A stretch of DNA of 64,000 bases from a virus. Below are positions 77 to 61,721 of this stretch, in pieces. The stretch lies in the IMG/VR virus record IMGVR_UViG_3300044641_001047, positions 1 to 64,000 of that record. One strand, 5' to 3'. The translations under genes were made by a program, and so were the position numbers. Within the stretch, counting starts at the first letter, position 1. Every line of letters starts with the position of its first letter. The notes under the pieces are model-generated. The model worked only from the letters and a program-made list of their open reading frames with translations, was not told where the DNA came from and ran no database searches.

Positions 77-427
77 ATGGCAATTGAAGCTACCGTTGCA
101 CAAGATGTTGCAACACAACCAACCACAGTAATTACTGTATCATCAGTTCTTGGAGATTTGAATAACGGCCTAGACAGAGCCGCTATTGCTAAGAAGTATA
201 ACTTATCAGCAGCAGAAGTTGCAGAGGTATTCAAGCACCCAAAGCTCAAAGGTCTACGTGCTCGTCGTAAGATTACACGTATCTCTATTGTAGATGACAC
301 AGTAGAAAATCCAGTAACAATCCCAACCATTCAACCAGTTACAGAAGGTAACCAGTTGGAGGTGGTTACAAATCCTAACCAACTCGACCTGCTTGATTTG
401 ATTGTTGATGCAGAAGCAGAGATGTGA
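77..427 (+). CDS. Small protein with helix-turn-helix-like segment
   Basis: This 116-aa protein is not recognised as a named family. Residues about 32-62 (LDRAAIAKKYNLSAAEVAEV and a following basic stretch with KGLRARRK) look like a helix-turn-helix of the kind found in resolvases and sigma region 4, followed by a basic patch, which suggests DNA binding. The C-terminal third is acidic and ends in VDAEAEM. Several arginines use CGT, the codon preferred by the highly expressed genes of this window. It sits directly before the candidate single-strand DNA-binding protein, 51 bases away and co-oriented, so a role in DNA metabolism or early regulation is inferred. It ends in TGA, showing that TGA is a stop here. 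Confidence 0.6.
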   Translation: MAIEATVAQDVATQPTTVITVSSVLGDLNNGLDRAAIAKKYNLSAAEVAEVFKHPKLKGLRARRKITRISIVDDTVENPVTIPTIQPVTEGNQLEVVTNPNQLDLLDLIVDAEAEM

Positions 428-478
428 AGGGAAAGGGACATAGTTTATAAAATGTTTTACCGTTAAAAATTATTAAAA

Positions 479-1243
479 ATGGCTATTCAATCGAATAATT
501 CAGAAGAAGTTGTAGCAGGTGGTGGTATAACCCTATATACAGGTATTGCCCCAGTATCAGTAGTTGCAGTTAATCCTAGCTTAGATGAGCTCTCAGATCT
601 AGGTATTAATCTCAGAAACGAACCAGAGTATAAGGTGACTCTTAACGAAGAGGACTATAATAAGCTAGTATTCTGGCTTAAGTCTGACGTTCCTGGTCTA
701 TCTTTTACTACAAGATTTGAGATCCTCATGCAGTCTAAGCATCGTGCATCTAAGGATGGAAGCAAGTTCATGTGGGCTAACAACATTGGTCAGACTACAT
801 GGAGTGCAGACGTTCCTGCCTATGACTGGTGGAAGAATAAAGATAAAACCAGAAAAGCTTATGTTGGTGAGGATACTTTGATTAACTTTGCTAAAGCTTG
901 GGCTAACGTGGCTAATGGTGGAGAGGTATCATTTGATACTATCGATGCTATTGCTCAGGGAGATGTAAGAGAGTTGCAAGAGTATGTTAAGGTACTCAGT
1001 GCTAACAAATTACGTGTCCTTGTAGGTGTTAAAGATGGCAAGTATCAAGCTGTCTATAACCGTCACTTCGGTCGTCTCAAGCCAATGAGAGATGACATGT
1101 TTATCAAGGCCTTGAATGAGGACTATGGTTCCTTCAATGCTGAGTATAACAAGGATCTCAAACTACAGGTTTATTCCCCAACTATGATTGTGGCTGACCC
1201 TGTAACTGCAGCAGCTGAATCAGCTGATGCTTGGGATGTATAA
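479..1243 (+). CDS. Candidate single-stranded DNA-binding protein
   Basis: This 254-aa protein has a mixed alpha/beta central region with many aromatic and basic residues (for example NNIGQTTWSADVPAYDWW near 96-113 and AVYNRHFGRLKPMRDDMF near 191-208). The C-terminus (AAAESADAWDV) is acidic and ends in a hydrophobic residue, like the protein-interaction tail of many single-strand binding proteins. Replication blocks of crAss-like phages usually encode one, and this gene lies just before the primase. It uses CGT and AAC codons more than its neighbours, which fits an abundant protein. It is closed by a strong terminator, so it can be expressed separately from the primase. No diagnostic OB-fold motif was seen; the call is an inference. 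Confidence 0.45.
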   Translation: MAIQSNNSEEVVAGGGITLYTGIAPVSVVAVNPSLDELSDLGINLRNEPEYKVTLNEEDYNKLVFWLKSDVPGLSFTTRFEILMQSKHRASKDGSKFMWANNIGQTTWSADVPAYDWWKNKDKTRKAYVGEDTLINFAKAWANVANGGEVSFDTIDAIAQGDVRELQEYVKVLSANKLRVLVGVKDGKYQAVYNRHFGRLKPMRDDMFIKALNEDYGSFNAEYNKDLKLQVYSPTMIVADPVTAAAESADAWDV

Positions 1244-1300
1244 TGTGTTTGTGTTTGTTTATTGTGTATATTGTTATTGTTTTGATTAAGAGAGAAGATA

Positions 1301-1330
1301 GGGGGCTAACGAGCCCCCTTCTTTATTTTT
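1301..1330 (+). terminator. Rho-independent terminator after candidate SSB
   Basis: GGGGGCT at 1301-1307 pairs with AGCCCCC at 1312-1318 around the 4-base loop AACG, and TTCTTTATTTTT follows. It lies about 57 bases after the stop codon and just before the primase start, separating the two transcription units. Confidence 0.85.
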
Positions 1331-1336
1331 GTAACT
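1324..1336 (+). promoter_or_regulatory. TAnnTTTG element 5 bases before primase start
   Basis: TATTTTTG (1324-1331) is followed by TAACT and the primase ATG at 1337. It matches the Bacteroidota -7 promoter box TAnnTTTG and sits just after a terminator, where a new promoter would be expected. The same arrangement, TAnnTTTGTAnnnATG, precedes three left-pointing genes in this window. No clear TTTG box is seen at -33. Confidence 0.45.
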
Positions 1337-2320
1337 ATGATTCAGATAAGGAACAGCGATGCTTACTTGGATAAGGACTCTGTTCTCTGTAAGATTTCAG
1401 AGTACGACATCTTTAAGTTCTATTGTCACAACTTTAAGAAGAACGGTGACAAGTTTTGTAGTGAACTCAGACAAGATAGATCCCCAACTTGCTCGATAAT
1501 CCAGTACAATGGTAAGCTATTGTATAAGGACTTCGGTAATGGGGAGAGCCATGATTGTTTTAGTTACGTGCAACGTAAGTATAATCTGACATTTATAGAA
1601 GCACTTAAGGTAATAGATGCTGACTTTGGGCTAGGACTCCACATGGGGACTGTGACTAAGGCTGAGATGGCTATTACCTATGGGGATCAAGTTATTGAGG
1701 AAAGAAAGCCCACGGTGCTTACTAAACGTAGTAGAAGGTGGACTGAAGAAGATGTTAAATTCTGGGGTAAGTTTGGGATAGACTTAGAGTTATTGACTAA
1801 ATTTGCTGTAGAGCCGATCGATTACTTTTGGATCAATGAGGTTCGGTATAGCTGCCACACTCTGGCTTATGCATATAATATCAACGGGAGATATAAGATC
1901 TACAGACCGTTGGAAACAGAGGGTAAGTGGTTCAGTAATACTACTAAAAATGATATCCAAGGCTATGGCCAATTGAAAGACAGTGGAGACATTGTCTTTC
2001 TTGCTTCATCACTAAAGGATGTTATGACCTTGAATGCTCTGGGATTCGAGGGAGTAGCAATGCAGAGTGAGATGCAGATGCCTAGTCAGAAGTTTATTGA
2101 TCATCTCAAGACGAGATTTGACTTAGTGGTTGTGCTGTATGATAATGACTTCAATTCTGATACAAATCCAGGCCAGACTATGGCTAATAAGATTTGCAAT
2201 TCGTATCAGTTAATCAACGTCATCATCCCAGCTCATTATAAATCTAAGGATATATCAGATCTTGTTAGAGATCATGGAAAAGATTGTGCAAAAAGAATAA
2301 TTAACATTCAACTACCGTAA
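1337..2320 (+). CDS. DnaG-type primase
   Basis: This 327-aa protein would make RNA primers for phage replication. The N-terminal part has a degenerate zinc-binding-like region (KFCSELRQDRSPTCSI near 38-53), resembling the CPFHxDxxPS pattern of CHC2 primase domains but with fewer cysteines. The Toprim core is at about 218-275: FLASSLKDVMTL forms the first motif, and the DxD motif reads VVVLYDNDF with D269 and D271. The usual first-motif glutamate is replaced by serine. It is shorter than cellular DnaG (about 580 aa), and no helicase domain is present. It leads a packed set of replication genes, and the next start follows its TAA directly. Confidence 0.8.
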   Translation: MIQIRNSDAYLDKDSVLCKISEYDIFKFYCHNFKKNGDKFCSELRQDRSPTCSIIQYNGKLLYKDFGNGESHDCFSYVQRKYNLTFIEALKVIDADFGLGLHMGTVTKAEMAITYGDQVIEERKPTVLTKRSRRWTEEDVKFWGKFGIDLELLTKFAVEPIDYFWINEVRYSCHTLAYAYNINGRYKIYRPLETEGKWFSNTTKNDIQGYGQLKDSGDIVFLASSLKDVMTLNALGFEGVAMQSEMQMPSQKFIDHLKTRFDLVVVLYDNDFNSDTNPGQTMANKICNSYQLINVIIPAHYKSKDISDLVRDHGKDCAKRIINIQLP

Positions 2321-2548
2321 ATGACTGATTCTAAATACTATACAGACCCAGAGACTAGGGAGAAGATTGACACTATACTAAAAAATTGTGCAAATCTGTT
2401 CAGTAACCTAGGTACTTACACTACTTTTGATGTACAAGACATCAGAATTGCAAAACAACTAGAACGAAAATGGCTAAACGAAATACAAGAACTAGATCCA
2501 ATACTGTTCGAAAAGCTGGTCCCAAGAAAGGAAGCCGCGGAAAAATAA
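2321..2548 (+). CDS. Small hypothetical protein overlapping the nuclease gene
   Basis: This 75-aa protein starts immediately after the primase stop (TAAATG), which suggests translational coupling. It is mostly helical by composition and charged, with no recognised domain. Its last 26 codons share 79 bases in another frame with the start of the following PD-(D/E)XK nuclease gene. Both frames look genuine: this one by its tight junction with the primase, the next by its catalytic motifs. A role as a partner or regulator of the nuclease is possible but unsupported. Confidence 0.6.
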   Translation: MTDSKYYTDPETREKIDTILKNCANLFSNLGTYTTFDVQDIRIAKQLERKWLNEIQELDPILFEKLVPRKEAAEK

Positions 2549-2964
2549 AGGCTACTCAAAAGGTAGTAGACGGCATACAGTTTAAGTCAATGTTGGAGGT
2601 GTTTACGTATCGTAAGCTATTAGAGTTTGAGTTAAGATTCGAGTACGAACAAAAGAAGTTCGTCATTATGCAAGGGTTTGAGTATCCTGAGTGTTCTTGG
2701 GAGACTAAGCCTAGTGGGGACTATGAGGATAAGGGCCATGGAAAGGTTCGAGATATCACATATACCCCAGACTTTATTGGGTATGATGCAAAGGGGAAGA
2801 TTAAGTGGGTCATTGAGTGTAAAGGATTTGCCAACGATAGATTCCCCAATACATGGAAACTATTCAAGCAGACTCTAATACGAGAAGGAACACCAGTCCC
2901 CTTGTATCTCCCTAAAAATCAGAAGCAGGTCTTGGAGTCAATCGAAAAGATACTAGCTTTATAA
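2470..2964 (+). CDS. PD-(D/E)XK endonuclease (DUF1064 / Holliday-junction nuclease-like)
   Basis: This 164-aa protein has the layout of small phage PD-(D/E)XK nucleases. A basic N-terminal tail of about 30 residues precedes GIQFKSMLEVFTYRKL with the first acidic residue (E43), then DITYTPDF and VIECKG, giving the P-D...E-x-K catalytic set. Such enzymes cut branched or recombining DNA and occur in most crAss-like replication blocks. The chosen start lies inside the previous gene; no later methionine would keep the first helix, so the 79-base overlap is accepted. A terminator follows. Whether it is a junction resolvase or another endonuclease cannot be decided from motifs. Confidence 0.75.
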   Translation: MAKRNTRTRSNTVRKAGPKKGSRGKIKATQKVVDGIQFKSMLEVFTYRKLLEFELRFEYEQKKFVIMQGFEYPECSWETKPSGDYEDKGHGKVRDITYTPDFIGYDAKGKIKWVIECKGFANDRFPNTWKLFKQTLIREGTPVPLYLPKNQKQVLESIEKILAL

Positions 2965-2982
2965 TCAACTATTTAACTAACT

Positions 2983-3017
2983 AAAGGTCTGGAGAAATCT
3001 GGGCCTTTTTTATTTTA
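2983..3017 (+). terminator. Probable rho-independent terminator
   Basis: AAAGGTC (2983-2989) can pair with GGCCTTT (3002-3008), including one G-T pair, around a 12-base loop, and the T-rich run TTTATTTTAT follows. It is weaker than the other terminators of the window and sits between the nuclease and RIIA-like genes. Confidence 0.6.
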
Positions 3018-3022
3018 TCCTA

Positions 3023-5809
3023 ATGAGTATAAAAACTATTGAAGACAACTACATTGGGATGGATAAGGGTGTGGCTAAGAGGATTAACAAGGGAGCTGAG
3101 AAGCTCGTCTTTGATATCCTACAGGCTACTCAGTATTCCACCCCTATCCCTTCAACCGTCAGAGAGCTGGTAACAAATGCCTGCGATGCTCAACGAGAGA
3201 AGGAGATTGCTATTGAGATTCTTACTGGGGTTAAACAAGCATCAGACTACTACATAACCAGAGATGGGGAGCAGTATTCTGATTCTAACTTTGACCCTAG
3301 CTACTATTCTATCTCTAACCTTGATATTGTACGTAATCATATCGAGATAACTTATCAGCACAATGATGGCATTGGCTATTGTGATAAGCTATCTATCAAA
3401 GACTATGGTGTAGGTATCGGGGCTAAAAGATTAGAAGGTATCCTTGAGCTAGGCTATTCTACTAAACGTAACACAAGTCAGAACTTCGGTGCTTTTGGCT
3501 TGGGTGCTAAGGTAGCACTGTCAACTGGTGTAGACTTCTATACTATTGAGACGGTGTACAATGGTAAAAGATTCAAGGCTAATTGTTTTAACTATAAGAC
3601 TGACTTCATCATCCCGAAGTTCAATCTTACGACAGGCCAGATTAACCCATCAATTACTTTGTCTGATGGATCTACAGTATATTATGAGGATACTACTGAT
3701 CTTAACTGGACTGAGGTAAGCTTTGGTGTTAAGTCCCACAACTCAGCTAGATTCAATGAGGCTATAGAAGAGCAGCTCAACTATCTTGACAATGTTCGTT
3801 TCTATGTAGAAATGAATGGTCACAAGATGGAACAGAAGATTAAGAGTGAGATCATCTATAACTCTAAGAACCTAATTGTCTCTACTAATAACTATTTGAG
3901 AAAACCTCATATCGTTATTGTAAAGGAAGAGGGAGCTGAGACTGGGATTAACTATGGCTATGTAGACTTTAGAGAGTTAGAGATGCAGGATCTGTATGGT
4001 CCTGTAGGCTTGAAGTGTCCAATTAAACAGTCCTACATTGATGAGGAAGGGCAAGAAGTAATCATTCAGGATGGTGTCGAGGTAACTCCATCACGAGAGA
4101 AGGTTATCTGGAGTGATTCGACTAAGGCTTTTATTCAGAAGCTTATCGATGCAGCTGCAGATGAGGTAACCGAACTCGTGGAGAAAGAGTTATTAGAGAC
4201 AGACTTCCTTAAATGGTTAGATACTTGCAGACAAATCATTGGTGGTAAGACAGGAAGTAAATATTCAGATGATCCAAGTGAAAGAACCCTTGCAATATTA
4301 TCAAACATCATTGATACTAAGTCGATCAAGCCTAAGTATTCTCCTAATCCGACTATTAAATTTACTAGCATTCCATCAACTCTTAATGGTTTTAGCTTAA
4401 AAATTCATAATAAGAAGATTAATAGAACTAGTAAGTCTACTGGATTAGTTACGGAGTTTGAGTATACCTCAGATAAGATAGACCACTGGGAACAGATCGG
4501 GGATAGGAAAGTATTCTATCGTACAGGTAATGCTAATAAGTACAAGGACTTCTACTTATATCAGAATTATGGTCCATTTGTAACTATTAAGAGGACTAGT
4601 CTTAGTTACTTACAGGATCATATGGATAGTCCTGGTATACCTGATACAGATATAGCTCATTACCAAGCAGAGTATACTAGGAAGAAGTCTAATCAAGATT
4701 TGATAGAGCCGTTGATCAAAGCATCAGAACTTTATGAGAGTTATGATGACATTGTTCTTCCTGATGATATCAAAGCTCAATTTGATGGGGCTGAAGCTAG
4801 TGCTTCAATTGTTAGTACTGGAGATCTAACTCCAGAGGAAAGACGTAAGCTTAACTCTCAGATTGTAGGTTATACTCTTCGTCCTGATAACAGTAGAAAT
4901 GCTGGTAATTCTTACAAGGATTTCATATGGGATAAGGTAGAGCCAACTCTCAACACAGTAATCAAGAGTCAAATTCCGACTTACTATGGTACTGACGAAG
5001 ATGCTGAGAAGTTGAAGATGGCTGCTGCTATTCTTAGTAAGTTTAATCCTGCTTTCACTAAGATATACAATCATAATTCGTGGTTACCTTATGGTGAGTA
5101 TAATGACACTGTATATTACTTTGATGTCTTACCTAGTAGATTCTTAAGGAATATCCCTACTCTAAAGGTTCCATTTGATAGTCTTAAGGAGCATACTCAG
5201 ATTCTAAAACTTAGTGAAGCTAATACTAAACATGTAAGAGATCTGGATAATTACAAACACATCGATGAGTTCTTTAGAACTGTAGATGCTGAGGGTAATT
5301 ATACTTGTCACCCAGCTGTTAATATGCTTGCTAATTATTACTGGGCTGATCAGTTCCCAATCTGGCAGAGCTTTACTTCATTCGATGAGTGCTTTCAACT
5401 TGACTTTATAGATGAGAGGTATAATAAGATTCATTCTTATCTTCTAGACATCTATAAGAAGTTTGACTCTATTGTATTTACAAAGACTAATCCTGAAGAT
5501 TTGCTTGTAGATCTAAAGAGTGACCTTACTAATCTTACTGCTTTTGAATTGTTTTCTGCAGCTGACATATCTGATGATATGAGGGCTGAGTTATCTGCTA
5601 AGTTCTTTGTGTTGTCTGATATCCCAGGAGTAAAAGTCTTGGATCATAAATTTATGGAGGTTATGAGATTTGCTGATGAGTTCACTAAGGACACCAGAGA
5701 TCTTCTTCCACATTTAAGTTTCTATGGCAAACCTCATACACACGAGCAGATAAAAATCTATCTGAAAACCTTACAGGTATTGGAAATTCCTATCCCTGAG
5801 CTCAATTAA
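3023..5809 (+). CDS. rIIA: RIIA-like protein with GHKL ATPase domain
   Basis: This 928-aa protein begins with a GHKL ATP-binding fold. The N box is in VRELVTNACDAQ (E48, N52, D55), the G1 box is KDYGVGI (D127, G129, G131) and the G2 box is GAFGLGAK (156-163). This arrangement, followed by a long divergent region and paired with an RIIB-like gene immediately downstream, matches phage RIIA proteins. Those are membrane-associated in T4 and linked to lysis timing and defence against superinfection. Homologues are reported in crAss-like genomes. The remaining about 750 residues show no recognised domain. Family assignment is firm; the biological role in this host is unknown. Confidence 0.75.
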   Translation: MSIKTIEDNYIGMDKGVAKRINKGAEKLVFDILQATQYSTPIPSTVRELVTNACDAQREKEIAIEILTGVKQASDYYITRDGEQYSDSNFDPSYYSISNLDIVRNHIEITYQHNDGIGYCDKLSIKDYGVGIGAKRLEGILELGYSTKRNTSQNFGAFGLGAKVALSTGVDFYTIETVYNGKRFKANCFNYKTDFIIPKFNLTTGQINPSITLSDGSTVYYEDTTDLNWTEVSFGVKSHNSARFNEAIEEQLNYLDNVRFYVEMNGHKMEQKIKSEIIYNSKNLIVSTNNYLRKPHIVIVKEEGAETGINYGYVDFRELEMQDLYGPVGLKCPIKQSYIDEEGQEVIIQDGVEVTPSREKVIWSDSTKAFIQKLIDAAADEVTELVEKELLETDFLKWLDTCRQIIGGKTGSKYSDDPSERTLAILSNIIDTKSIKPKYSPNPTIKFTSIPSTLNGFSLKIHNKKINRTSKSTGLVTEFEYTSDKIDHWEQIGDRKVFYRTGNANKYKDFYLYQNYGPFVTIKRTSLSYLQDHMDSPGIPDTDIAHYQAEYTRKKSNQDLIEPLIKASELYESYDDIVLPDDIKAQFDGAEASASIVSTGDLTPEERRKLNSQIVGYTLRPDNSRNAGNSYKDFIWDKVEPTLNTVIKSQIPTYYGTDEDAEKLKMAAAILSKFNPAFTKIYNHNSWLPYGEYNDTVYYFDVLPSRFLRNIPTLKVPFDSLKEHTQILKLSEANTKHVRDLDNYKHIDEFFRTVDAEGNYTCHPAVNMLANYYWADQFPIWQSFTSFDECFQLDFIDERYNKIHSYLLDIYKKFDSIVFTKTNPEDLLVDLKSDLTNLTAFELFSAADISDDMRAELSAKFFVLSDIPGVKVLDHKFMEVMRFADEFTKDTRDLLPHLSFYGKPHTHEQIKIYLKTLQVLEIPIPELN

Positions 5810-5838
5810 TTTCGTATCTTTATAGTAAATAATTAAAC

Positions 5839-7008
5839 ATGATTTATATCAATGTAATTGACGACAGGATCTGCGGATCCTATGGAGACACTCCGTTCTC
5901 TGTTCAGTATAGCCCTGAACTGTATGAGAAACTGAGTAAACTTTCTGAACTTGCTAATGATGCTACCACATTTGAGGAGTATCAAAAGTTTCTTGATGAG
6001 TTCGGACTGAACACCCAGGAGGATTATGCCACTCTTATCATGGATAAGTGTGACTTTATCTTCGTAAACAAAGCTACTGGGGAGTTCTTTCTAGAACATG
6101 GAGGAACTGTGTCTACTATTCCAATGCCTGAGGCTTTGGTAGAAAGAATCTATGAGTCCATTGACAGAGGGATTGATTTTACCCCACTAGTTAAGATGTG
6201 GACTAGATGGCTTCGTAACCCTATCCTCAGAAAGAAGATGAAGGATGGAAGAGGTAAGGAATTCTCTGAGAGATTCTTCAACTTTGTAAATCTTAAGTAT
6301 GTACACCCTGTACTATTTAAGAAGTATACAGAGGAGATGGGCTTCTCTGATGAGAAGGCTATCGATGCTGCTACTATGTATCAGATGAAGATTACTAAAG
6401 AGGGTCTCTTGAATGGTTACAAAGTATCCAGAGAGATTCTACATAAGTACAACCCTGAGACTGGGCAAGTTGAAGATCGTTACAAGAGAACTTTTAATGT
6501 AGATACTGGTGAGATTGTATCAGAAGGATTGCCAGATCTAGTTGAGGAGAGATTGTTCGAGCCAGCAGTTATGGGGAGTGGTGGAGATGCATTCTATTGT
6601 GAAGGAGGAAATGGTTATGGAGCTCCAGGCCACTTCATCAAGGTAGGTTGTGTACATCGTCTCGATTCTTGGGATAAAGTAAACACTAATGATCATCTAT
6701 CTTGTGTTCCAGGTTTGCACATCGGAGGGTTGAAGTATATCTCTGGATACTGCGGTGAGATTCACAACGTGTTTGTTGACCCAATGCACATCGGTGCTAT
6801 TCCTGATGATGAGACTGGTGCTATTCGATGTTTACAGTATTTCGTTCATTCATCTCTTGTAGGTGTTAATGGTGCTATCTATCACTCTTCTACTTATGCA
6901 GCTATGACAGATGCTGAGTGGGATAAGATGAGAGAAGAAGCTGTTGCTCTATCTATGGAGCAGGTAAAGAAACTTCAAGCAGAACAGGATGAACTAAATT
7001 CATTATAA
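5839..7008 (+). CDS. rIIB: RIIB-like protein
   Basis: This 389-aa protein follows the RIIA-like gene by 29 bases. It carries features of phage RIIB proteins: a helical segment with IDFTPLVKMWTRWLRNP near 113-129, and the conserved SCVPGLHIGGLKYISGY near 288-304, close to the GLHVG signature of the family. A long acidic helix rich in Q and E ends the protein. Its pairing with the GHKL protein supports both calls. In T4 the RII proteins act together at the membrane, where they affect lysis and exclusion by resident prophages. Function in a gut phage is inferred only by analogy. Confidence 0.75.
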   Translation: MIYINVIDDRICGSYGDTPFSVQYSPELYEKLSKLSELANDATTFEEYQKFLDEFGLNTQEDYATLIMDKCDFIFVNKATGEFFLEHGGTVSTIPMPEALVERIYESIDRGIDFTPLVKMWTRWLRNPILRKKMKDGRGKEFSERFFNFVNLKYVHPVLFKKYTEEMGFSDEKAIDAATMYQMKITKEGLLNGYKVSREILHKYNPETGQVEDRYKRTFNVDTGEIVSEGLPDLVEERLFEPAVMGSGGDAFYCEGGNGYGAPGHFIKVGCVHRLDSWDKVNTNDHLSCVPGLHIGGLKYISGYCGEIHNVFVDPMHIGAIPDDETGAIRCLQYFVHSSLVGVNGAIYHSSTYAAMTDAEWDKMREEAVALSMEQVKKLQAEQDELNSL

Positions 7009-7011
7009 GCT

Positions 7012-7827
7012 ATGATCGACCGTATAGACACAGAAGGACAAGAGAGTACGATTTGTCTAATTGACGGGGATAGCTTATTATATTACGAGATGGATAAGCC
7101 TACTCTGGAGGAAGGTCTGAAAGGACTGGACTCCAGAGTAGAGACTATCCTGACTAATTGTAATGCTAATGCTTACGTTGGTTTTCTAACAGGGAAGAGT
7201 GGATATAGATATCAAGTCTCCCCAACATATAAAGCTAACCGTAAGCATCGTCCCAAACCAATTATCTTCTATGCACTCAGAGAGTACTTGAAGCAGAGGT
7301 ATACATTCAAAGAGTTCGAAGGATTAGAAGCTGATGATCTCGTTGCTTACTATGGAGTAAACAACAATGATTGGAAAGTTGTAATCTGTTCTCCCGATAA
7401 GGATGTACTGCATCAGTGCATAGGCAAGCATTTTAATTATCAGAAAGTAGAGTTTGTGACAACTAGTGAAACAGATGCCGAGAAATTTTTATGGAAACAA
7501 GTCTTAATGGGGGATAGCACGGATAACATCCAAGGCATCCCAGGTGTAGGAATCAAGACGGCAGAGAATTGGCTGAAGGATCGTGAGAAAGAAATCGAAG
7601 GGTTTGTGTTGAGAAAATATGTAGAAAAGTTCGGTGTAGTTGAAGGCTTGGAACAGTTCTTCATTAACTTTCGACTGGTGTATCTCCTTAAGACTAAGGA
7701 CGACATACTACGAGAAGTTAAACTGGAACTACCTGAATTACAGTCTTTAATATGTATTAACTCTAAACCTGAAGAGAATGAGCCAACAGAATCAGCCCCT
7801 GAATCTCCCTCCTGGGAAACCTGGTAA
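7012..7827 (+). CDS. 5'-3' exonuclease / flap endonuclease
   Basis: This 271-aa enzyme belongs to the FEN/5'-3' exonuclease family (T4 RNase H and T5 D15 type) that removes RNA primers and flaps. All metal-binding clusters are visible: D18 and D20 in CLIDGDSLLYYE, E106, D108 and D109 in FEGLEADDL, D129 and D131 in CSPDKDV, D168 and D171 in MGDSTDNI. The helix-three-turn-helix GIPGVGIKTAENWL at 175-188 binds DNA. The helical arch region contains SPTYKANRKHRPKP. It starts 3 bases after the RIIB-like gene, and its last 50 bases overlap the next gene. Confidence 0.9.
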   Translation: MIDRIDTEGQESTICLIDGDSLLYYEMDKPTLEEGLKGLDSRVETILTNCNANAYVGFLTGKSGYRYQVSPTYKANRKHRPKPIIFYALREYLKQRYTFKEFEGLEADDLVAYYGVNNNDWKVVICSPDKDVLHQCIGKHFNYQKVEFVTTSETDAEKFLWKQVLMGDSTDNIQGIPGVGIKTAENWLKDREKEIEGFVLRKYVEKFGVVEGLEQFFINFRLVYLLKTKDDILREVKLELPELQSLICINSKPEENEPTESAPESPSWETW

Positions 7828-8614
7828 ATCCTTTCTAACCATTGTCAATGCTAGAACAGTAAGACTGTCTGGTGATATAAAACAATTCAAGCCAATCTAT
7901 AATGACTCTGATGAGATCATTAAGCTAGAGGGAACAGAGTTGGATTACTATATCGGACAGGTTATTAGACCCAAGGTAAAAACTCCTTACAAGATTAATG
8001 TAATTCAGAAACTGACTGCAGGAGGAGATCCAAAGAATCCTGCACAAGGCTATGACTTATCTATTGCTAAGACAAACTTGTCCTCAATCTTTGCTGCTCC
8101 TTTATTAGGAGGTAACAGAGAGTTATTCTTGTGGGATAAGTATTTCATTAATGCTTTTGTAGAAACACCAGATGAGAAGAACATCATTGCAATGCTGTAC
8201 AGATTCTCAGGGGATGTTTTGTTCTTGAAGTTCGAAGCTGCACTATGTGCATTCAGAACATTTAAGTACAAGATTGATACTGACTCGAGTCATGTACTAT
8301 TTGTGTTTGAAGTTCCAGAGACATCACAAAGTGCCTATGAACACTTGATGAATAGTGAGTATTCTAAGATTGATGACTTCTTGAAGTTAAAGATTCTAGA
8401 TTACCACGGGTTTAATATGGATGGTCAGACTGCTAGAGTTCTATTCAAGTCTCAGATTCTAAAAGCTGAGCTTGAGGAGAAGCTAGACTGTACTATCCCT
8501 GCAGAGAATGAGCTGCACTCAGCACTTGATATGGTCCAAGAAAGATTTGATCCACAGTATTATTACACACCAAAATCAATTGTAGAAAGAAAGTCTAATG
8601 TCAAAAGTACTTGA
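7778..8614 (+). CDS. Conserved hypothetical protein of the replication block
   Basis: This 278-aa protein is not recognised. It is a soluble mixed-fold protein without transmembrane segments. The first 16 residues are rich in Q, P and G (MSQQNQPLNLPPGKPGK), and a hydrophobic core with VLFLKFEAALCAFRTFKY lies near 149-166. Its first 50 bases overlap the flap endonuclease gene and its last 17 overlap uracil-DNA glycosylase, so it sits in a run of translationally linked DNA-metabolism genes. A replication or repair accessory role is inferred from context only. The next in-frame methionine is over 130 codons later, which supports the start used. Confidence 0.65.
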   Translation: MSQQNQPLNLPPGKPGKSFLTIVNARTVRLSGDIKQFKPIYNDSDEIIKLEGTELDYYIGQVIRPKVKTPYKINVIQKLTAGGDPKNPAQGYDLSIAKTNLSSIFAAPLLGGNRELFLWDKYFINAFVETPDEKNIIAMLYRFSGDVLFLKFEAALCAFRTFKYKIDTDSSHVLFVFEVPETSQSAYEHLMNSEYSKIDDFLKLKILDYHGFNMDGQTARVLFKSQILKAELEEKLDCTIPAENELHSALDMVQERFDPQYYYTPKSIVERKSNVKST

Positions 8615-9359
8615 ACAATTAGGGGATTGGGCTCCAGTATACATGCAGGTTACTGAAGAGCTCGGTCTTGAATACGAAGTGCTCAAGTCAACTTTAAAAG
8701 CAGAAAGAGCCTCTAGGACTGTTTACCCAAGCAGTCCAGAGGTTCTTCGAGCTTTTGAGCTGACACAACTCAAAGATTTAAAAGCAGTCATCATTGGCCA
8801 AGATCCGTATCACAATGGAGCTGCAACAGGTCTAGCCTTCGGGGTTAGAGAAGGGTTTAAGATTAACCCAAGTCTTAGAGTTATTTATAAAGAGCTATGT
8901 TTGGAACACGGAGAAGAAGAACTACCTAACTTTGATTTCAGCTTAGAGAGCTGGGCCAAACAAGGTGTACTACTTCTCAATACAACATTAACTGTGGTAA
9001 AGGGTCATCCTAACTCTCATGAAAGTCTGTGGAGAGGCTTTGTAGATAAGATGGTAGGTAAGATGATCCAAGAAAAAGACAATGTTGTATTTCTCTTATG
9101 GGGTAAATATGCACAGAACAGATTCGATTCTTTAGTTAAATCTACGAATATGTACTATGGTAAATCCCATGTTGTAATTACTGCCCCACATCCTGCAGCT
9201 GAGGTATACGGAAGTATGAAAGCTGGATTTGTTGGGAGTAATTGTTTTATGAAAGCTAATGATAACCTTTCTTATCCTATTGATTGGGTAGGCTCATATG
9301 AACCTGAGCATCAACTGCCTCAAGATACATGGGATGGGGGACAAATACAAGAACCGTAA
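8598..9359 (+). CDS. ung: Uracil-DNA glycosylase, family 1
   Basis: This 253-aa enzyme removes uracil from DNA. The water-activating loop GQDPYH is at 67-72 (catalytic D69), followed by the uracil-binding region GAATGLAFGV, the DNA-binding segment WAKQGVLLLNTTLTV at 119-133, and the family pattern FLLWGKYAQ at 165-173. The leucine-loop histidine is H198 in APHPAAEVYG, where most family members have HPSPLS, so that loop is altered. Length is close to cellular Ung (about 230 aa). Phages encode it to purge uracil or counter its incorporation. It overlaps both neighbours and is part of the replication transcription unit. Confidence 0.92.
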   Translation: MSKVLEQLGDWAPVYMQVTEELGLEYEVLKSTLKAERASRTVYPSSPEVLRAFELTQLKDLKAVIIGQDPYHNGAATGLAFGVREGFKINPSLRVIYKELCLEHGEEELPNFDFSLESWAKQGVLLLNTTLTVVKGHPNSHESLWRGFVDKMVGKMIQEKDNVVFLLWGKYAQNRFDSLVKSTNMYYGKSHVVITAPHPAAEVYGSMKAGFVGSNCFMKANDNLSYPIDWVGSYEPEHQLPQDTWDGGQIQEP

Positions 9360-9574
9360 TGTCAAAGCAAACAGCAGTGGAGTGGTTAGAACTCGAATTA
9401 AAAAAACTACCTTTTGTAGATGTAGTTGAAGTCTTTCAAAAAGCCAAAGCAATGGAGAAGGAGCAGATTAATGAAGCCTTCTCTGATGGATTTCATTGTG
9501 GGTATGAAGGCATAGAAGATACAGAAGATTATTATTCTGAAAACTACGGAAATAAGCATGAATCAACCAAGTAA
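9359..9574 (+). CDS. Small hypothetical protein, common in Bacteroidota phages
   Basis: I place the start at 9359, giving 71 aa, because this ATG overlaps the stop of uracil-DNA glycosylase as TAATG. An earlier ATG at 9329 would add 10 residues inside the upstream gene. The sequence opens MSKQTAVEWLELELKKL and has a central AKAMEKEQINEAFSDG, a pattern I recognise as recurrent in small accessory proteins of Bacteroidota phages, without a known function. The C-terminus is acidic and tyrosine-rich (EDYYSENYG). It overlaps the following gene by 17 bases. Confidence 0.65.
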   Translation: MSKQTAVEWLELELKKLPFVDVVEVFQKAKAMEKEQINEAFSDGFHCGYEGIEDTEDYYSENYGNKHESTK

Positions 9575-9770
9575 CTTATTAGCATCAGTAATCATGGATC
9601 TGAAGATCCGTGAAGAAAGAGGATTAGCAACATACGGTACAACTATGGATAGGAAGGACCTATCTAAACAAGAGTGGCTGCAACATGCCTATGAAGAAGC
9701 TCTTGATTTAGTTCTGTACCTTAAGAAGCTGATGGAGGAGAATGATAAGCTCAAAATAAAAGAGCAATAG
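9558..9770 (+). CDS. MazG-like small helical protein
   Basis: This 70-aa protein contains REERGLATYGTTMDRKDL followed by WLQHAYEEALDLVLYLKKL (residues about 18-58). The E-E-x-x-D pattern on a helix following an R...G...YG segment resembles the metal-binding helix of MazG-type nucleotide pyrophosphohydrolases, in a minimal form often seen in phages. If active it would hydrolyse a nucleotide, but a full four-helix catalytic core would need a dimer or tetramer. It is the last gene of the right-pointing block and ends in TAG two bases before a terminator stem. Confidence 0.55.
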   Translation: MNQPSNLLASVIMDLKIREERGLATYGTTMDRKDLSKQEWLQHAYEEALDLVLYLKKLMEENDKLKIKEQ

Positions 9771-21825: not shown

Positions 21826-24800
21826 TTATTTTTTCTTTTTATTACAAAGTTTATTTACAACTTCCTCTTGTATTTTTTTAGCTTCTTTTTCATTAATATC
21901 TATATCCAACATTTGTTTTACAAAAAATACAAAAGAGGCATTGTCCATAGCACCCATTTGAATTATTTGAGCTTTTAATTGAGCAGCACCATCACCCGAT
22001 GGGCCATTTGAAGCTTTTGCAGATATTATAGATTTTGCAATATTATCCTTAGTAATCTCACCTCCGTCCTCAGTTGAAGTATCTTCATCCTCATCTTCAT
22101 CTTCTTCAACTTCTCTTACCTTCTTAGTAATATTCTTTACAGGACTCTTCTTTTTAGAGTGGTTGGCAATAGCTGGATCGGAGCTTTTCTTAGCCTCTTT
22201 GTAGGCAAAGCTTACTTTTTTGTCTAGTACGTCTCCAAAATTAAGATTCAAAGTAAACTTCTTTTCTACAAAGTTACTAACTTTTAAGATAGTTCCATCA
22301 TCATCATACCTTAAAGGTATAAGTAAGGTACTTCCTTTTCTAACCATTGTAGATACATTGTTCTGTTTAGCATGCCCGTTGAACATATAAGCATAAACAC
22401 TTAGCTGTGCACCATGCTGGTCTCTCTTTGATCTACCATACTTAGTCTCCTCGTAGTTTTCAAGTCCAGAAGCTGTAAGAGTTTTTATATCATATATACG
22501 GTACTCCCCTTTTCTATCCTTAGTAAGAATGTCAAAGGTTCCAGCTATGTTTGGGTAGTTAGGATCAGTGTTGTATACAACCATCTCTACAGCAATTACT
22601 GTTTCTCCTCTTCCCCTTAGCATGCTTTGGATAGCTTTAGCTTGAGTTATAAGGTCGAGATAAGCTACTGAGGACACACCAGCTGGTTTAGTAGCAGGCT
22701 TACCCATAAGTAGGTTTTCAACTAAAGAGTGTACTAACTTACCAGCAGATGATGAGGCTTTCTGAGTTTCAGCAGATCCAGTAAATGGTTCTGATGTCAT
22801 CTTGGATGCCCTTTCGTATTCCTCCCCATTGATAATGTAATGAGTTTCCTCCCCTGTCACGGGATCTTTTTTCATTTCTTCACGGTGTTGATTCTTCTTT
22901 ATATCAGTAAGAATCTCTACCATAGGATCCCCTTTCTCCTCTTCTACCTCAGCAATAGTTCCACTAAGTCCTTGGCTTTTAATCTTTTTGCCAACAACTA
23001 CTTTTTCGTCATCTTCTTCTGTCTCTACAGTTTTAGTTCTTCTACGATTGATAGCCTTTTCCAGAGAGCTTGAATTGCTATCAGTATCTTCTTGTTCTTC
23101 TTCCTCTTCCTCCTCTATTCTCTTAGCTACTTCTCCAATTTCGTCATCATCTAGCAAAGCATTAGTAGAGTCAACTTGGTTGTCCTCCTCATCCATATCG
23201 GATTCGTTTGTATAATCCTCCTGCTCTTTAACTAAAGGTTCTTGTTTGGTAATCTTAGCTTTAGTTACTGTTCTAGAAGTTGTTGGCTTTTCATTTTCTG
23301 CAGCCTGTGCCTTGAATCCTTTTTCATCTGTAATCTCCCCAAAGTTCATCACCACATCAAAGTATGGGGAGAATGTTTTAGGGTTAAGATACACATCAGA
23401 GCTAAGTATACCTGAGTGTCCCTGATCTTTTTCCATATCAGAGATTTCATCAGGGTGAGTTAAATAGTCTAAGTAAGAAGCATATACTAAGCCAGTTACT
23501 TTACTTTCGTATTCGGGGTTTTCAGTTAGAAGGTTAATATCTACTTGATACCTTCTCTTCATTATAGCCTCTTTAAATGCAGAAGCTATTGATCCCATAT
23601 GAGCAGTCCAGTCACTTCTTCCTTCTATTGGTTCAAAGTTTAGACCTCCTTCTTCACCTCTTACTGCTTCTACAAATTGGAATTTAACAAAGCTATCAGG
23701 TTCAGTTAAAGCTAGAGCTAATTGGTCAGAGCTAATAGTAATATAAGTTTCTGCAGAAGGTAGCCAGAAGGTATAGCCTCTTGGAGCTTCTGGGTCAGAC
23801 TTCTCACCATATACTTGTTCAAAAATTAGGTTCCTATTTGCATCATCAATAGCAGCTTCTGCAACTTCGTTGAAACCTACAATCTCTGCTACATCTCCAG
23901 CTCTATCATCTGTAATAGCTTCTACTACTGCATTGTATCCAACCTCAGTCATTTTCTTGGTAGTAGCCCTTATATAAGACAGATCTCCATTTGGGGTACG
24001 AACCAAGATTGCCACTTTACCTAAGTCAGCAGTTGACAATCGTGACAGCAAGTCACCTGGGATTGTTTCATCCTCTTTAAGAACATCCCCTCGGTTTGTC
24101 ACCTCCCACTTTGGTTCTTTTTTGTAGGTTCTAGCAACAAGCAATGTAGGGGTATAAAGTATATTCCCATCTTCATCTACTGGGACAGGATCAAAGAAGA
24201 ATACATTGCCATCCTCAGTCGCTGCATTAGCAATGTTCTGAGAGTCTACATATTTATTAGTAAGAATGGTTGTAGGAATTTTGCCGTTATCCCAAAGATT
24301 GTAGATAGTCTCCCTATCCATAGATCTGCTAGGATTAGAAGGGTTATAACCTTCAAGCAATCCAACTCTTTTAAATCCATCTTTTGTTCTAACTGCTACA
24401 AATATTGGAATGTTTTTCCAGTATTCTGACTCAGATACATTTGGATTATTTTTTACAAATTTCTGCCACCACTCAGTTTCTGGATTAACTTCAAATCGTA
24501 CTTCTGCACCATTTTCTACTATGTCAGAATCAGTCAATAGCTCAGGGAAAATTTGAATTGGAACCCATTTACCATTTTTTAATTCAAACTGTTGTCTTCC
24601 ATCTTTGCCATTAGTTCCATAGTAAGAACTATTAGGAATCGGAGTACCATCCTCGTCAACAAGAATATTATCATAACCGTTAGCATACTCATGTTGGGTT
24701 TTAATTACTGCGATGCTACTCTGGTTCTCTGAATTTTTAACTTCTTCATGAACCGTTTTCTTTCTAAATTGAATGTTACCCTCATCCTCTTCTGGATCTG

Positions 24801-43398: not shown

Positions 43399-43665
43399 TT
43401 ACCAGTTTGAGCAGCTCCCACATCTCCAGACACGAAGAGCTTTGTTTATTCTTGAATTTGGGTCGTTTGCAGTTTTGCTTGATGTCAGCTTAGACTTCAT
43501 CCCACACATCCTGTTACAGAATGAGTTACGTCGTTTTCCACCCTTAGGTTGTGGGGCCCCTAGTTTAGATCCAGGGTTAGCGGCACGGTAAGAAGCTCTG
43601 CCTTTTGCATTTAATCCTCCTTTTGGATTCTTACCTTCTGATCGTTGCCAAGCTGGTGATGCCAT
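43399..43665 (-). CDS. DUF6321-like small basic protein
   Basis: This 88-aa protein has the stretches AWQRSEGKNPKGGLNAKGR, APQPKGGKRRNSFCNRMCGM and LTSSKTANDPNSRINKAL. These match a small family widespread in tailed phages that I recognise as DUF6321. The family is strongly basic and of unknown function. This copy carries four cysteines (NRMCGM and WRCGSC regions plus the FC pair), which might bind metal. Its start is preceded by TAACTTTG plus 5 bases, the same start-proximal element as at three other genes, suggesting its own transcript. Confidence 0.65.
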   Translation of the reverse strand: MASPAWQRSEGKNPKGGLNAKGRASYRAANPGSKLGAPQPKGGKRRNSFCNRMCGMKSKLTSSKTANDPNSRINKALRVWRCGSCSNW

Positions 43666-43670
43666 CGTTA

Positions 43671-43678
43671 CAAAGTTA
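43671..43678 (-). promoter_or_regulatory. TAnnTTTG element 5 bases before the DUF6321-like gene
   Basis: On the minus strand TAACTTTG is followed by TAACG and the ATG at 43665. It fits the Bacteroidota -7 box and the four-copy pattern TAnnTTTGTAnnnATG. It falls in the 21-base gap after the preceding 240-aa gene. No -33 box is evident. Confidence 0.4.
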
Positions 43679-54758: not shown

Positions 54759-55907
54759 TTATTCAAACAGCTTCTTCATATCCAGTTGGTCTGGATCAAA
54801 TTTCTTTGCTTTGCCTTTTTCAATCTTTCCGTAGTTCTTAACTCTCTCTTCGTTACGTTGGATTTTATCTCTCAAGCTCTTTACACTTTCGGTCTTAGCC
54901 TTAGTAGTGATGATATCTTGAAGATTCATTCCTTTGTACATCAAGTAGTCAATAGCCAGTTTAACATCGAGCTCTGAATTAGCATAATCCATGTCTCTAC
55001 GTGTTCTGCCTGATTTATCTACAGGTGCGGAAATATAATCAAAGAACTTAGCTTTCTCTTTTTCAGGAATTCTGATTCCAGCAAACTCTTTACCTTGGTC
55101 AATTGTAGAGGCTACATTCTCCCAAAATTCTTGTTGCTGTTTTTCTTGCTCCTGTCTTTCACGTTTCTGTTGCTCTACTATCTGTTCTCTTTCTTTAGAC
55201 TGAATAGTAGCTAATTGTTTTTGAGCAACTATTGCTTTGTCATAGAGTTTACCAGAGTCCTCGTAGTCCTCGAGCATATCTTTAATGAACTCTTCATCGT
55301 GTCCTTTAGTTTTAAAGTATTCAGACACAAATGCTTTTTGAGTTCTTGCATCATTCTGATCGATCTCATATTGAGAGTAATCCAAATTTGGATTATAAGC
55401 TTGGAAGAACTTTTCAGAATCTCCACCTGCAAGTACAAAGTCAAGATGCTTTTGTACTAGTGGGAATTGCTGAAACAACTCATTAAGCTGATCCTCTGCA
55501 ATATTCTGAGCAATGTCTTTAGTAAATTCTACTAAACCTTCCTCAGTATCAGCATACGTATTTTCAATATCGTAACCCAGTGCCTTTGCAATGGATTCTG
55601 CTACAGACCCAGACTCTTCTGAATCTTCTTCATCAGATTCATCATCATCTTCTTGGTCTTCTCTAGCATACTTTTTTGATTGGAGTTCTTCATCGTCTTC
55701 GTCGTCTTCGTCTGTACGTTTTCTACTGGACTTGGACTCGGGTTCGGACTCGGACTCTGAATCGTCTGATTCTTCTTCTGATTCTTCTTCATTTTCAAGT
55801 TCGTCTTTTGTTGTTTCCTCTTTTTCATCAAGAGTGTTCAGACCATCACCAATAAAATCGTCGAAGGTGATGTCTGCAATGTTCAATTTTTGTTCTTTGG
55901 TTGCCAT
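54759..55907 (-). CDS. Acidic scaffold-like protein
   Basis: This 382-aa protein directly precedes the major capsid gene, the usual place of a scaffolding protein. Residues about 25-105 are almost entirely E, D, S and K (runs such as ESEEESDDSESESEPESKSS), the centre is a compact helical region, and a glutamine-rich coiled coil follows (EQIVEQQKRERQEQEKQQQE at about 235-254). The C-terminal stretch is basic (KGKAKKFDPDQLDMKKLFE), a feature of scaffolds that bind capsid protein. Such proteins guide head assembly and leave or are digested. No protease domain is visible. Confidence 0.7.
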   Translation of the reverse strand: MATKEQKLNIADITFDDFIGDGLNTLDEKEETTKDELENEEESEEESDDSESESEPESKSSRKRTDEDDEDDEELQSKKYAREDQEDDDESDEEDSEESGSVAESIAKALGYDIENTYADTEEGLVEFTKDIAQNIAEDQLNELFQQFPLVQKHLDFVLAGGDSEKFFQAYNPNLDYSQYEIDQNDARTQKAFVSEYFKTKGHDEEFIKDMLEDYEDSGKLYDKAIVAQKQLATIQSKEREQIVEQQKRERQEQEKQQQEFWENVASTIDQGKEFAGIRIPEKEKAKFFDYISAPVDKSGRTRRDMDYANSELDVKLAIDYLMYKGMNLQDIITTKAKTESVKSLRDKIQRNEERVKNYGKIEKGKAKKFDPDQLDMKKLFE

Positions 55908-55912
55908 ATTTA

Positions 55913-55920
55913 CAAAGGTA
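55913..55920 (-). promoter_or_regulatory. TAnnTTTG element 5 bases before the scaffold-like gene
   Basis: On the minus strand TACCTTTG is followed by TAAAT and the ATG at 55907, matching the pattern TAnnTTTGTAnnnATG. It lies in a 43-base gap after the 1048-aa gene. It could drive the scaffold and capsid genes. Confidence 0.45.
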
Positions 55921-59097: not shown

Positions 59098-59504
59098 TAA
59101 GACAAGAATTTAAGTTTATATTTAGCAGAGTTAAGAGCAGACTTGATGTTATCTAAATCGTTAACTATCTCAGAGAACTCACATCCGTCTTGAACTCTAG
59201 TTATTTTAGTATGCAATTGATCAATATAATTAATTGCATCTTTTACTGACCTCATAGTTGGGGCAGATATATTATCTGGGTAATCTGGAATTGTACCAGT
59301 TGCTCCTTGATATCCTTCGGCTACTGCATCTGCAAGTCCTGGGAGTGCATCATAAAGTTCGTTAAGTGCTTTGTGTGCAGCATAAGAACCTGCCCCTGTT
59401 ACTGTTAGATGTAAAACGTGGAACTTAGTTGCAGCATCCATCAATTCTACGGCTAATGCTGGGATAGATTCTTTTTTAGATTTCATCTTTTCTATATAGC
59501 TCAT
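59097..59504 (-). CDS. Dps-like four-helix protein (DUF5856-like)
   Basis: This 135-aa protein reads as a ferritin-like bundle. The stretch KFHVLHLTVTGAGSYAAH with KALNELYDALPGLADAVAEG carries H32, H44, N48, D59 and E63. Their spacing (12, 4, 11, 4) equals that of the E. coli Dps ferroxidase residues H51, H63, D67, D78 and E82, with D67 replaced by N48. The sequence also recalls the phage family DUF5856. It would bind iron, DNA or both, or serve only as a structural bundle. Its start overlaps the portal stop as ATGA and its stop overlaps the next start as TAATG. Length is shorter than cellular Dps (about 167 aa). Confidence 0.7.
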   Translation of the reverse strand: MSYIEKMKSKKESIPALAVELMDAATKFHVLHLTVTGAGSYAAHKALNELYDALPGLADAVAEGYQGATGTIPDYPDNISAPTMRSVKDAINYIDQLHTKITRVQDGCEFSEIVNDLDNIKSALNSAKYKLKFLS

Positions 59505-61708
59505 TCTGCTAGATTTTGGTTAGCCTTCATTTCAATTTCTTTTTCTTTTAAGGCTAATTGTTGTTGTTTAATTTGAAAGTCCTGCATCATCTTTTCAAGA
59601 TTATTGCTAGTTGACTTATCTTGTGCTTCAGCTGCAATCAAAGCTTTCTCAATCTCTAGCTGTCTATCTTTTTCTTTATCTAAAGCTGCTTGCTGAACTT
59701 GTTGTTGTTGTAGCTGTAACTCTGCTTGCTGTTGTTGCTGTTGAGCTTGCTCTTGTGCCTTTCTCAATTCGTCAGCTTGCTTTTCAGCTTGCTTAATCTT
59801 ATCCTTAATTTGAGAGAAGCTATCACTTTCAAATATAGATATAACTGTTGACATAGGTACACCGTTCTGTACAGCTGCTTGTGCCAAGCCTTCAATCTTC
59901 TGTTTCTTCTCTGCATCTTTCCCTGCATCAGAAACAAATATTCCGTACTCTGCCTCCATGTGAGTTACTGGTTCTACATCAATCTCGTCCATACTGCCAT
60001 CAGGCATTACGTACATAGCCTTCTTTCCATTGAGCCAAGCCTCCTTTGAGTAATCCAAAAGTCCTTGGAGCTCTCTTCTTTCAAAGTTAGCAAATTTTCT
60101 AAAGATATCCTCTGTAATGTGAGAAGACTGCACAATGCTCTGCTGAGACGTAGCTTTTCCTTCATAAGAACTCATTTGGCCCTGTCTCTGCCTAGTCACT
60201 CCACTAACTTTCTCCCACTCGACCATAATAGACTCTAGCAAGGTAAGGTATTGAGATATCGTCTTAATAGACATATCTAATACTGACTGATGCTGAGGAG
60301 ATAACTGAATTCCTTCTTTGTTGTAATCTACCCAAGCTATACCTGTACCCTCTACAAAATACATGAACTTATCCATGTCCCAGTTCTTAGGGATCATGTT
60401 AATGTCGAACTGAGCAATGATATCTTTACTACGTGCAATAGCTAGTTCAAGACGGTATTTGTAAATATTGTAATTGAGCTGATAAGCTATTCCTAAGCTT
60501 ACCAAAGAAATACTCTGAGAGTTAATGTCAGAGTATTTTCTTCCATTGATTGGGAGTTTACATCTAGAAGGATTGTCTAAGCTGCTTCGTTGGTTCTTAT
60601 ATGGACGAACATTGATGAAGAATCTTCTATCAATTCTAGTTCCCTCCCATACTTCGTTTACCCACTCCCATTCCATCTTAGCATTAAGATCTTTGAGTTC
60701 TTGAGGTAATTTGTATCCCTCTTCTACGTCAAACATCTCAGTATTTCCTGTATTAGGATCGTCATAAGTCACAAATCCAATACGCTTCCTACTCTTCCAG
60801 TAAACCGTTATTATCTCAATTAACCTATTACGGTATATGTTGTCATCTGCTCCACTTGCTTCTGCTCTATACAAGAGATAAGCTTCAGCTGATGTATGTG
60901 TTGGAGATTCTAACTCAAGAACCTGCTCATCAGATAAGTATTCCCCAAATATGTCAATGATGGTAGATGCGTGAGAATATTTTCTAATGATGGCCCAGTC
61001 GGCATCTTCAACAAAATCGATGTCAGGATCTTTGTCATAGTCGATATCTAAAGGATTAACTACTTCGTAAAATACTTCATCTCTTCTTACCCCCTTATGT
61101 GAATATGTCTCCCCTGTAACCAGGAAGTGGAAGAACAGCTTTTGAAATTTATCATATACTTCATTGTAGTACATCATATAATTCAAGGCCGCCTGCCCCA
61201 TCACTGCTCTGTGGTCTACATAACTTCTTTCAAATTCCTCTGCTACTTGTTTTGGGAGAGGGGGCTCTTGCTGCTCTGGGAGTTCTACCTCTTGTTGTTT
61301 AGCTAGCTCAGCTAGGAACTTAGCCTTAAGGTTAGATAAGATTAAGTTCTTCAATGCCTCTTCTTTCATACTGATTGAATCAGCATTCTGCACAGTAACC
61401 GTGTACTCTAAAGGACGTTTAGACTTCTCCCCAAGCAACAGATCGATGATGGGCTTAATGATCGGGTAGTTACGGAGCTTTGATGGAAAGTGGCTTCTAG
61501 TTTTGCCATAGGGTTTAAGGACATAGTTGTAGTCCTCCTCGTCGATTACCCCGTTATAGTAATCATATAGAGATTTAAGGTAGCTGCGTCGTTCGCTAAT
61601 GCCAAACTTAGATAGGTTAATAAAGGCATTGACACAGTCTTCTTTCCACTTGTCATCTTTCTGAGAGAAGGGGATTCGTTGCTTGGGGATTGTAGCTTGT
61701 CCGAACAT
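59501..61708 (-). CDS. Portal protein
   Basis: This 735-aa protein follows the large terminase and has the portal layout: a helical wing (ERRSYLKSLYDYYNGVIDEE near 39-58), a beta-rich stem region with MEWEWVNEVWEGTRIDRR, and a long clip and crown helix region. It ends in a glutamine-rich coiled coil (EQAQQQQQQAELQLQQQQVQ). Twelve copies would form the ring through which DNA is pumped. Length and order match crAss-like portals. It is preceded by a TAnnTTTG element, so it may have its own promoter. Overlap with the next gene suggests coupled translation. Confidence 0.85.
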   Translation of the reverse strand: MFGQATIPKQRIPFSQKDDKWKEDCVNAFINLSKFGISERRSYLKSLYDYYNGVIDEEDYNYVLKPYGKTRSHFPSKLRNYPIIKPIIDLLLGEKSKRPLEYTVTVQNADSISMKEEALKNLILSNLKAKFLAELAKQQEVELPEQQEPPLPKQVAEEFERSYVDHRAVMGQAALNYMMYYNEVYDKFQKLFFHFLVTGETYSHKGVRRDEVFYEVVNPLDIDYDKDPDIDFVEDADWAIIRKYSHASTIIDIFGEYLSDEQVLELESPTHTSAEAYLLYRAEASGADDNIYRNRLIEIITVYWKSRKRIGFVTYDDPNTGNTEMFDVEEGYKLPQELKDLNAKMEWEWVNEVWEGTRIDRRFFINVRPYKNQRSSLDNPSRCKLPINGRKYSDINSQSISLVSLGIAYQLNYNIYKYRLELAIARSKDIIAQFDINMIPKNWDMDKFMYFVEGTGIAWVDYNKEGIQLSPQHQSVLDMSIKTISQYLTLLESIMVEWEKVSGVTRQRQGQMSSYEGKATSQQSIVQSSHITEDIFRKFANFERRELQGLLDYSKEAWLNGKKAMYVMPDGSMDEIDVEPVTHMEAEYGIFVSDAGKDAEKKQKIEGLAQAAVQNGVPMSTVISIFESDSFSQIKDKIKQAEKQADELRKAQEQAQQQQQQAELQLQQQQVQQAALDKEKDRQLEIEKALIAAEAQDKSTSNNLEKMMQDFQIKQQQLALKEKEIEMKANQNLAE

Positions 61709-61713
61709 TAATA

Positions 61714-61721
61714 CAAAAGTA
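61714..61721 (-). promoter_or_regulatory. TAnnTTTG element 5 bases before the portal gene
   Basis: On the minus strand TACTTTTG is followed by TATTA and the portal ATG at 61708, matching TAnnTTTGTAnnnATG. It lies in an 86-base gap after the large terminase gene, the longest gap before a left-pointing gene apart from that after the capsid gene. A transcript starting here would have almost no leader. Confidence 0.45.

Follow-up and report, generated by a model that had tools for sequence, protein, structure and literature searches.

The window analysed here is a stretch of 64,000 nucleotides that covers the greater part of a 76.5 kb IMG/VR record (76,496 bases) of a crAss-like phage, an assignment given by matches of its portal, major head protein, and large terminase to PHROG families. 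Identity of its portal to those of named Crassvirales in the phage collection does not exceed about 32%, and a search for the portal in bacterial genomes, made for host identification, returned no matches. Replication genes occupy the + strand (77-9770), and virion genes occupy the − strand from 63762 down to 9802. Four genes are central to this analysis. The DNA primase gene (1337..2320, +) encodes 327 aa and matches PHROG 12622 DNA primase (E 8e-48). On the − strand, the portal protein gene (59501..61708, 735 aa) matches PHROG 6547 portal (E 2.9e-121). A gene of 382 aa (54759..55907, −) lies between the portal gene and the major head protein gene (53296-54720; PHROG 11589), which adjoins it as the next gene; it is scaffold-like by position, and PHROG and Pfam searches with it gave no matches. 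The fourth gene (43399..43665, −; 88 aa) carries the DUF6321 domain (PF19846, E 1.2e-18). Elsewhere, a giant protein of 2646 aa (21826-29766, −) has an AAA_33 domain (Pfam, E 5e-16) that spans residues 1164-1298, and a small open reading frame (77-427, +) has a weak match to DUF433 that falls below the cutoff (E 9e-4). The base frequencies of the window are 0.278 for A, 0.345 for T, and 0.175 for G; an initial annotation of this DNA had T and G close to these values and had placed A too high, at about 0.33.

An exact motif beside four start codons

The sequence TAnnTTTGTAnnnATG is present in exactly four copies in the window, compared with 0.08 expected, and every copy lies at a gene start, taken as the first ATG of a called gene. 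The copies span 1324-1339 (+) at the primase and, on the − strand, 43663-43678 at DUF6321, 55905-55920 at the scaffold-like gene, and 61706-61721 at the portal. No further copy lies in the other 12 kb of the record, the reversed control pattern has no match in the record, and none of 100 shuffled windows contains four copies. The initial annotation had described four exact sites at gene starts on both strands; all four are exact, and the full record has no others. Each copy begins with an eight-base box that ends 5 nt before the ATG: TATTTTTG at the primase (1324..1331, +), TAACTTTG at DUF6321 (43671..43678, −), TACCTTTG at the scaffold-like gene (55913..55920, −), and TACTTTTG at the portal (61714..61721, −). 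The equation of this box with the −7 element of Bacteroidota promoters holds, as TAnnTTTG is exact at 4/4 sites. By itself, TAnnTTTG is not enriched in the window (73 found, 67 expected). Thus, it is the position of the box beside the start codon that forms the signal, and the idea of a start-linked signal is borne out, only the copies next to an ATG being special.

The motif was noticed after looking, which favors chance as its source, and the initial annotation had cautioned that such a choice overstates significance. A position-weight model was trained on relatives, a set from which this phage and its kin at 95% identity had been left out. The four starts score 10.0-13.7 in this model, and the next called gene scores 4.4. 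Since these four genes also come out of a model trained independently of them, most of this objection is removed.

The primase copy directly follows the GC-rich hairpin GGGGGCTAACGAGCCCCC (1301..1318, +), which is predicted to act as an intrinsic terminator for the unit upstream. The 60 nt before the primase ATG fold to −22 kcal/mol, and the T-tract of the terminator (1301-1330 region) overlaps the −7 box. In relatives, a hairpin occupies this position too, its stem built from other base pairs. A hairpin retained with different stems indicates that the primase start region probably combines the end of one unit with the start of the next. Window positions 1301-1330 have the form of a compact end-and-start module.

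Enrichment and conservation among related phages

Placement of the box was counted in a clade set of 11 related genomes with 657 called genes in 148 families. The consensus TAHHTTTG ends 4-6 nt before the ATG in 8 of the 148 families, compared with a mean of 0.79 in Markov controls; the maximum over 1000 such controls is five families, and other 3-nt distance bins hold 1.5 families on average. The motif count in related phages therefore supports what had been seen in the single genome. At the two free positions of the box, G is found in 0/33 boxes at gaps of 4-6 nt and in 9/55 boxes further upstream. The intergenic gap before genes with a box has a median of 42.5 nt compared with 6 for other genes (Mann–Whitney P 1e-9, a value that is only indicative because related genes are not independent). 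Larger gaps before these genes are as expected for starts of transcription units.

Conservation is strongest at the virion genes. In about 76 relatives of the portal gene, TAnTTTTGTAnTA or a near variant stands directly before the ATG with a gap of 5 and sometimes 6 nt, and the DNA further upstream of the box differs. Box and gap remain fixed among relatives down to about 77% amino acid identity, and the box is present in 11/11 portal family members of the clade genomes. In 16 non-redundant portal relatives whose gap is 5 nt, neither the box nor the TA after it varies, while the upstream 47 nt average 60% identity; two further patches are kept there, approximately TAAAA at −24 to −20 and AAAA at −51 to −48. 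Portal relatives at 66-70% identity carry related but changed boxes, such as TAATTTTGCAAGGAT-ATG or TAATTTAGCAAGG-ATG. In distant portal relatives (L126-L143), an altered box is followed by CAAGGAT or CAAGG directly before the ATG, placing AAGG near the start, and the box of many such relatives begins with the TAA stop codon of the terminase. The scaffold-like gene has the box 4-5 nt before its ATG in all 11 clade genomes, and the box persists with a gap of 4 in relatives at 44% protein identity. A conserved hairpin before the head gene was considered and rejected; one of its arms consists of the C-terminal codons of the preceding gene, and its pairing is inconsistent. In the DUF6321 family, 8/10 members have the box, and some relatives have it with gaps of 4-6 at giant genes of the virion polymerase region. 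The primase shows a like arrangement (gap 4-6) in many relatives. The box is often missing in primase relatives at about 70% identity and below, which makes this site less conserved than the portal and head sites. Box, gap, conservation, base preferences, and the tie to unit boundaries are direct observations on these genomes.

These comparisons also bear on the explanation that similar A/T-rich start regions arose by chance or were inherited without function. The clade genomes are related, and genome counts are accordingly not independent, a circumstance that would suit frozen ancestry. However, the motif is common to unrelated gene families, box and gap are constant despite divergence of the DNA upstream of them, and the same four genes emerge from the model trained without this phage. 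Chance or ancestry is therefore an extremely improbable source of the motif.

The box as a putative leaderless promoter

In Flavobacterium johnsoniae, ribosome and RNA profiling has located transcript starts 4-5 nt beyond the −7 box and has led to a revised consensus, TAHHTTTG (PMC6847099). With this spacing, the four messages would begin at the A of the ATG or one base earlier. From the position and form of the boxes, it is probable that the four are −7 elements of leaderless promoters, read by the host polymerase with sigma-A, that open transcription units; here we infer the acting polymerase, the RNA start point, and leaderless translation. In the proposed mechanism, each box would serve as a −7 element for host RNA polymerase carrying the primary sigma factor (sigma-A / sigma-ABfr), and transcription would begin 4-5 nt past it, so that the first base would be the A of the ATG or lie one or two bases earlier. 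The predicted RNA starts are 1336 or 1337 for the primase, 43666 or 43665 for DUF6321, 55908 or 55907 for the scaffold-like gene, and 61709 or 61708 for the portal. The resulting messages, that of the primase included, would be leaderless and translated from a 5′-terminal AUG; the nearly leaderless messages proposed in the initial annotation are thus what the F. johnsoniae spacing would predict. The primase promoter would open the primase unit downstream of the terminator, and three nested late (virion) operon units would begin at the portal, the scaffold-like head gene, and DUF6321, which would lead the third of these units. Intergenic DNA before DUF6321 and the giant genes amounts to only 12-26 nt, so leadered read-through messages probably exist as well. 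Late genes of crAss-like phages are probably transcribed by the host polymerase, as judged in reviews and from RNA-seq of cultured phages (PMC10136315; PMC8375218), which fits a host-type box.

The motif could also be a translation signal in longer leadered messages, acting through ribosome contact or a low-structure start context, with no promoter involved. A signal at a fixed distance from the ATG, as found here, could in principle act in translation; Bacteroidota do not use Shine–Dalgarno signals and rely instead on sequence near the start codon (PMC6847099), and several of the boxes lie in short gaps inside co-directional gene runs. However, only four called genes have the motif, all after larger gaps than usual, and at the primase the preceding terminator makes a fresh transcription start necessary. 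The known Kozak-like signal of Flavobacterium is an A at −3, whereas the 16 portal starts have T in 11, G in 3, and A in only 2. In addition, the same box precedes the groES-like gene with an ordinary leader. A translation signal of this kind is accordingly very unlikely.

The groES-like gene of relatives (2830-3105 in L084) has a canonical leadered Bacteroidota promoter and offers a useful in-genome contrast: TTG or TTTG stands about 19 nt upstream of TATATTTG, and a leader of 15-21 nt follows. An upstream box at the gene 32065-35064 (gap 50) was rejected as a promoter, as it falls within the preceding coding sequence. Among non-redundant boxes of the same clade, TTG at the −33 spacing accompanies 3/57 leaderless and 14/43 leadered boxes (Fisher P 4e-4), and TA or TG directly follows 47/57 leaderless and 14/43 leadered boxes (P 5e-7); the difference between the classes is due in part to repeated counting of a few gene families. 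TTTG at a spacing of 17-20 is found at 2/57 leaderless boxes, and the −33 element is not a strict requirement, being weak in F. johnsoniae generally. This comparison is suggestive, though not proof, of a leaderless class that the polymerase reads with no contact at −33.

Both class differences favor a phage-specific promoter class in which a phage sigma or remodelling factor on the host core, or a giant phage polymerase, reads a −7-like box without a −33 element. There is precedent in Thermus phage P23-45: its gp39 shuts down promoters that depend on a −35 element but has much less effect on the extended −10 promoters of the phage itself (PMC7403470). However, the box is identical to the host −7 element, including its ban on G, the class difference is partly an effect of the repeated counting, and the virion polymerase of phi14:2 has been linked to early and not to late genes (PMC10136315). 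Moreover, the −33 element is hardly visible in F. johnsoniae promoters (PMC6847099), so its absence from the phage sites is not odd in itself, which qualifies the remark in the initial annotation that no −33 box is seen. A dedicated phage class is thus unlikely. Of the phage-specific signal that had been suggested, the placement 4-6 nt before the ATG stands, whereas the box itself is like that of host sigma-A. Somewhat less doubtful, though still on the unlikely side, is a two-class system on the host polymerase, with leadered promoters and a −33 element for some genes, leaderless promoters without −33 for the virion genes and primase, and a phage factor that blocks −33 recognition but leaves the leaderless class active. 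If this were true, host promoters would be silenced and virion messages would be translated by a route that uses only the start codon.

Distribution and comparison with known systems

Leaderless promoters of the host type, the reading preferred here, appear to be arranged most regularly in the clade of the window, which consists of lake-water crAss-like phages. A Crassvirales-wide feature was considered and rejected: the gut phages crAss001, DAC15, crAss002, cr106, and cr273 have none or one box at gaps of 4-6, and in the named records the exact pattern is at or near the control level. A feature of host genomes is likewise not supported, with 55 matches in six Bacteroidota genomes (about 27.7 Mb) compared with 44 for the reversed control. 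The Cellulophaga phage phi14:2 has TATATTTG 6 nt before its portal ATG and boxes at two other genes, one with a 5-nt gap. In Flavobacterium phage Fpv1, the gene after the portal has a box with a 7-nt gap and there are two other cases; the portal box is ordinary and leadered. Scattered cases in flavobacterial phages, together with none or one in gut phages, point to a habit of certain environmental crAss-like phages; phi14:2 and Fpv1 differ from the clade of the window in having only a few such sites per genome.

Leaderless messages make up 5.5% in F. psychrophilum (PMC9723704), leaders under 10 nt make up 3.7% in B. thetaiotaomicron (PMC7366714), and a genome survey assigned leaderless genes to 1 of 37 Bacteroidetes/Chlorobi genomes (PMC3160421); the low values in the first two species count against the leaderless reading. 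Because few genes are leaderless in these two mapped Bacteroidota transcriptomes, a phage clade that fixes the arrangement at its key genes would constitute a compact natural system, suited to the study of how leaderless messages are initiated where Shine–Dalgarno pairing is not used. In the literature searched, the scope of which left out the main phi14:2 transcription paper, no paper links leaderless messages with crAss-like phages and none gives a sequence definition of crAss-like late promoters. A precise and testable predicted promoter architecture is now given for the portal, head, and primase genes.

The phage sites share with the Bacteroidota sigma-A promoter the same −7 box, the same exclusion of G, and an A/T-rich upstream region (PMC6847099). 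Unlike those promoters, whose boxes lie tens of bases upstream, the phage boxes lie 4-6 nt before the ATG, are mostly followed by TA, and nearly lack TTG at the −33 spacing. The middle and late promoters of P23-45 may be an analogue, as phage promoters that are independent of an upstream element and are used by the host polymerase during takeover (PMC7403470); they differ in being of the extended −10 type with a known sigma-4 remodelling protein. Promoter boxes a few bases before an open reading frame that give rise to leaderless messages are established in Deinococcus-Thermus (PMC12340547). The −10 box adjacent to the open reading frame there, like that of TA-led genes, would be a parallel to the predicted phage promoters, standing likewise a few bases from the start at a fixed spacing, with leaderless messages and no upstream box (PMC12340547; PMC3160421), although the phylum and the box are different and the arrangement serves about a third of D. 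radiodurans genes compared with a handful of phage genes here.
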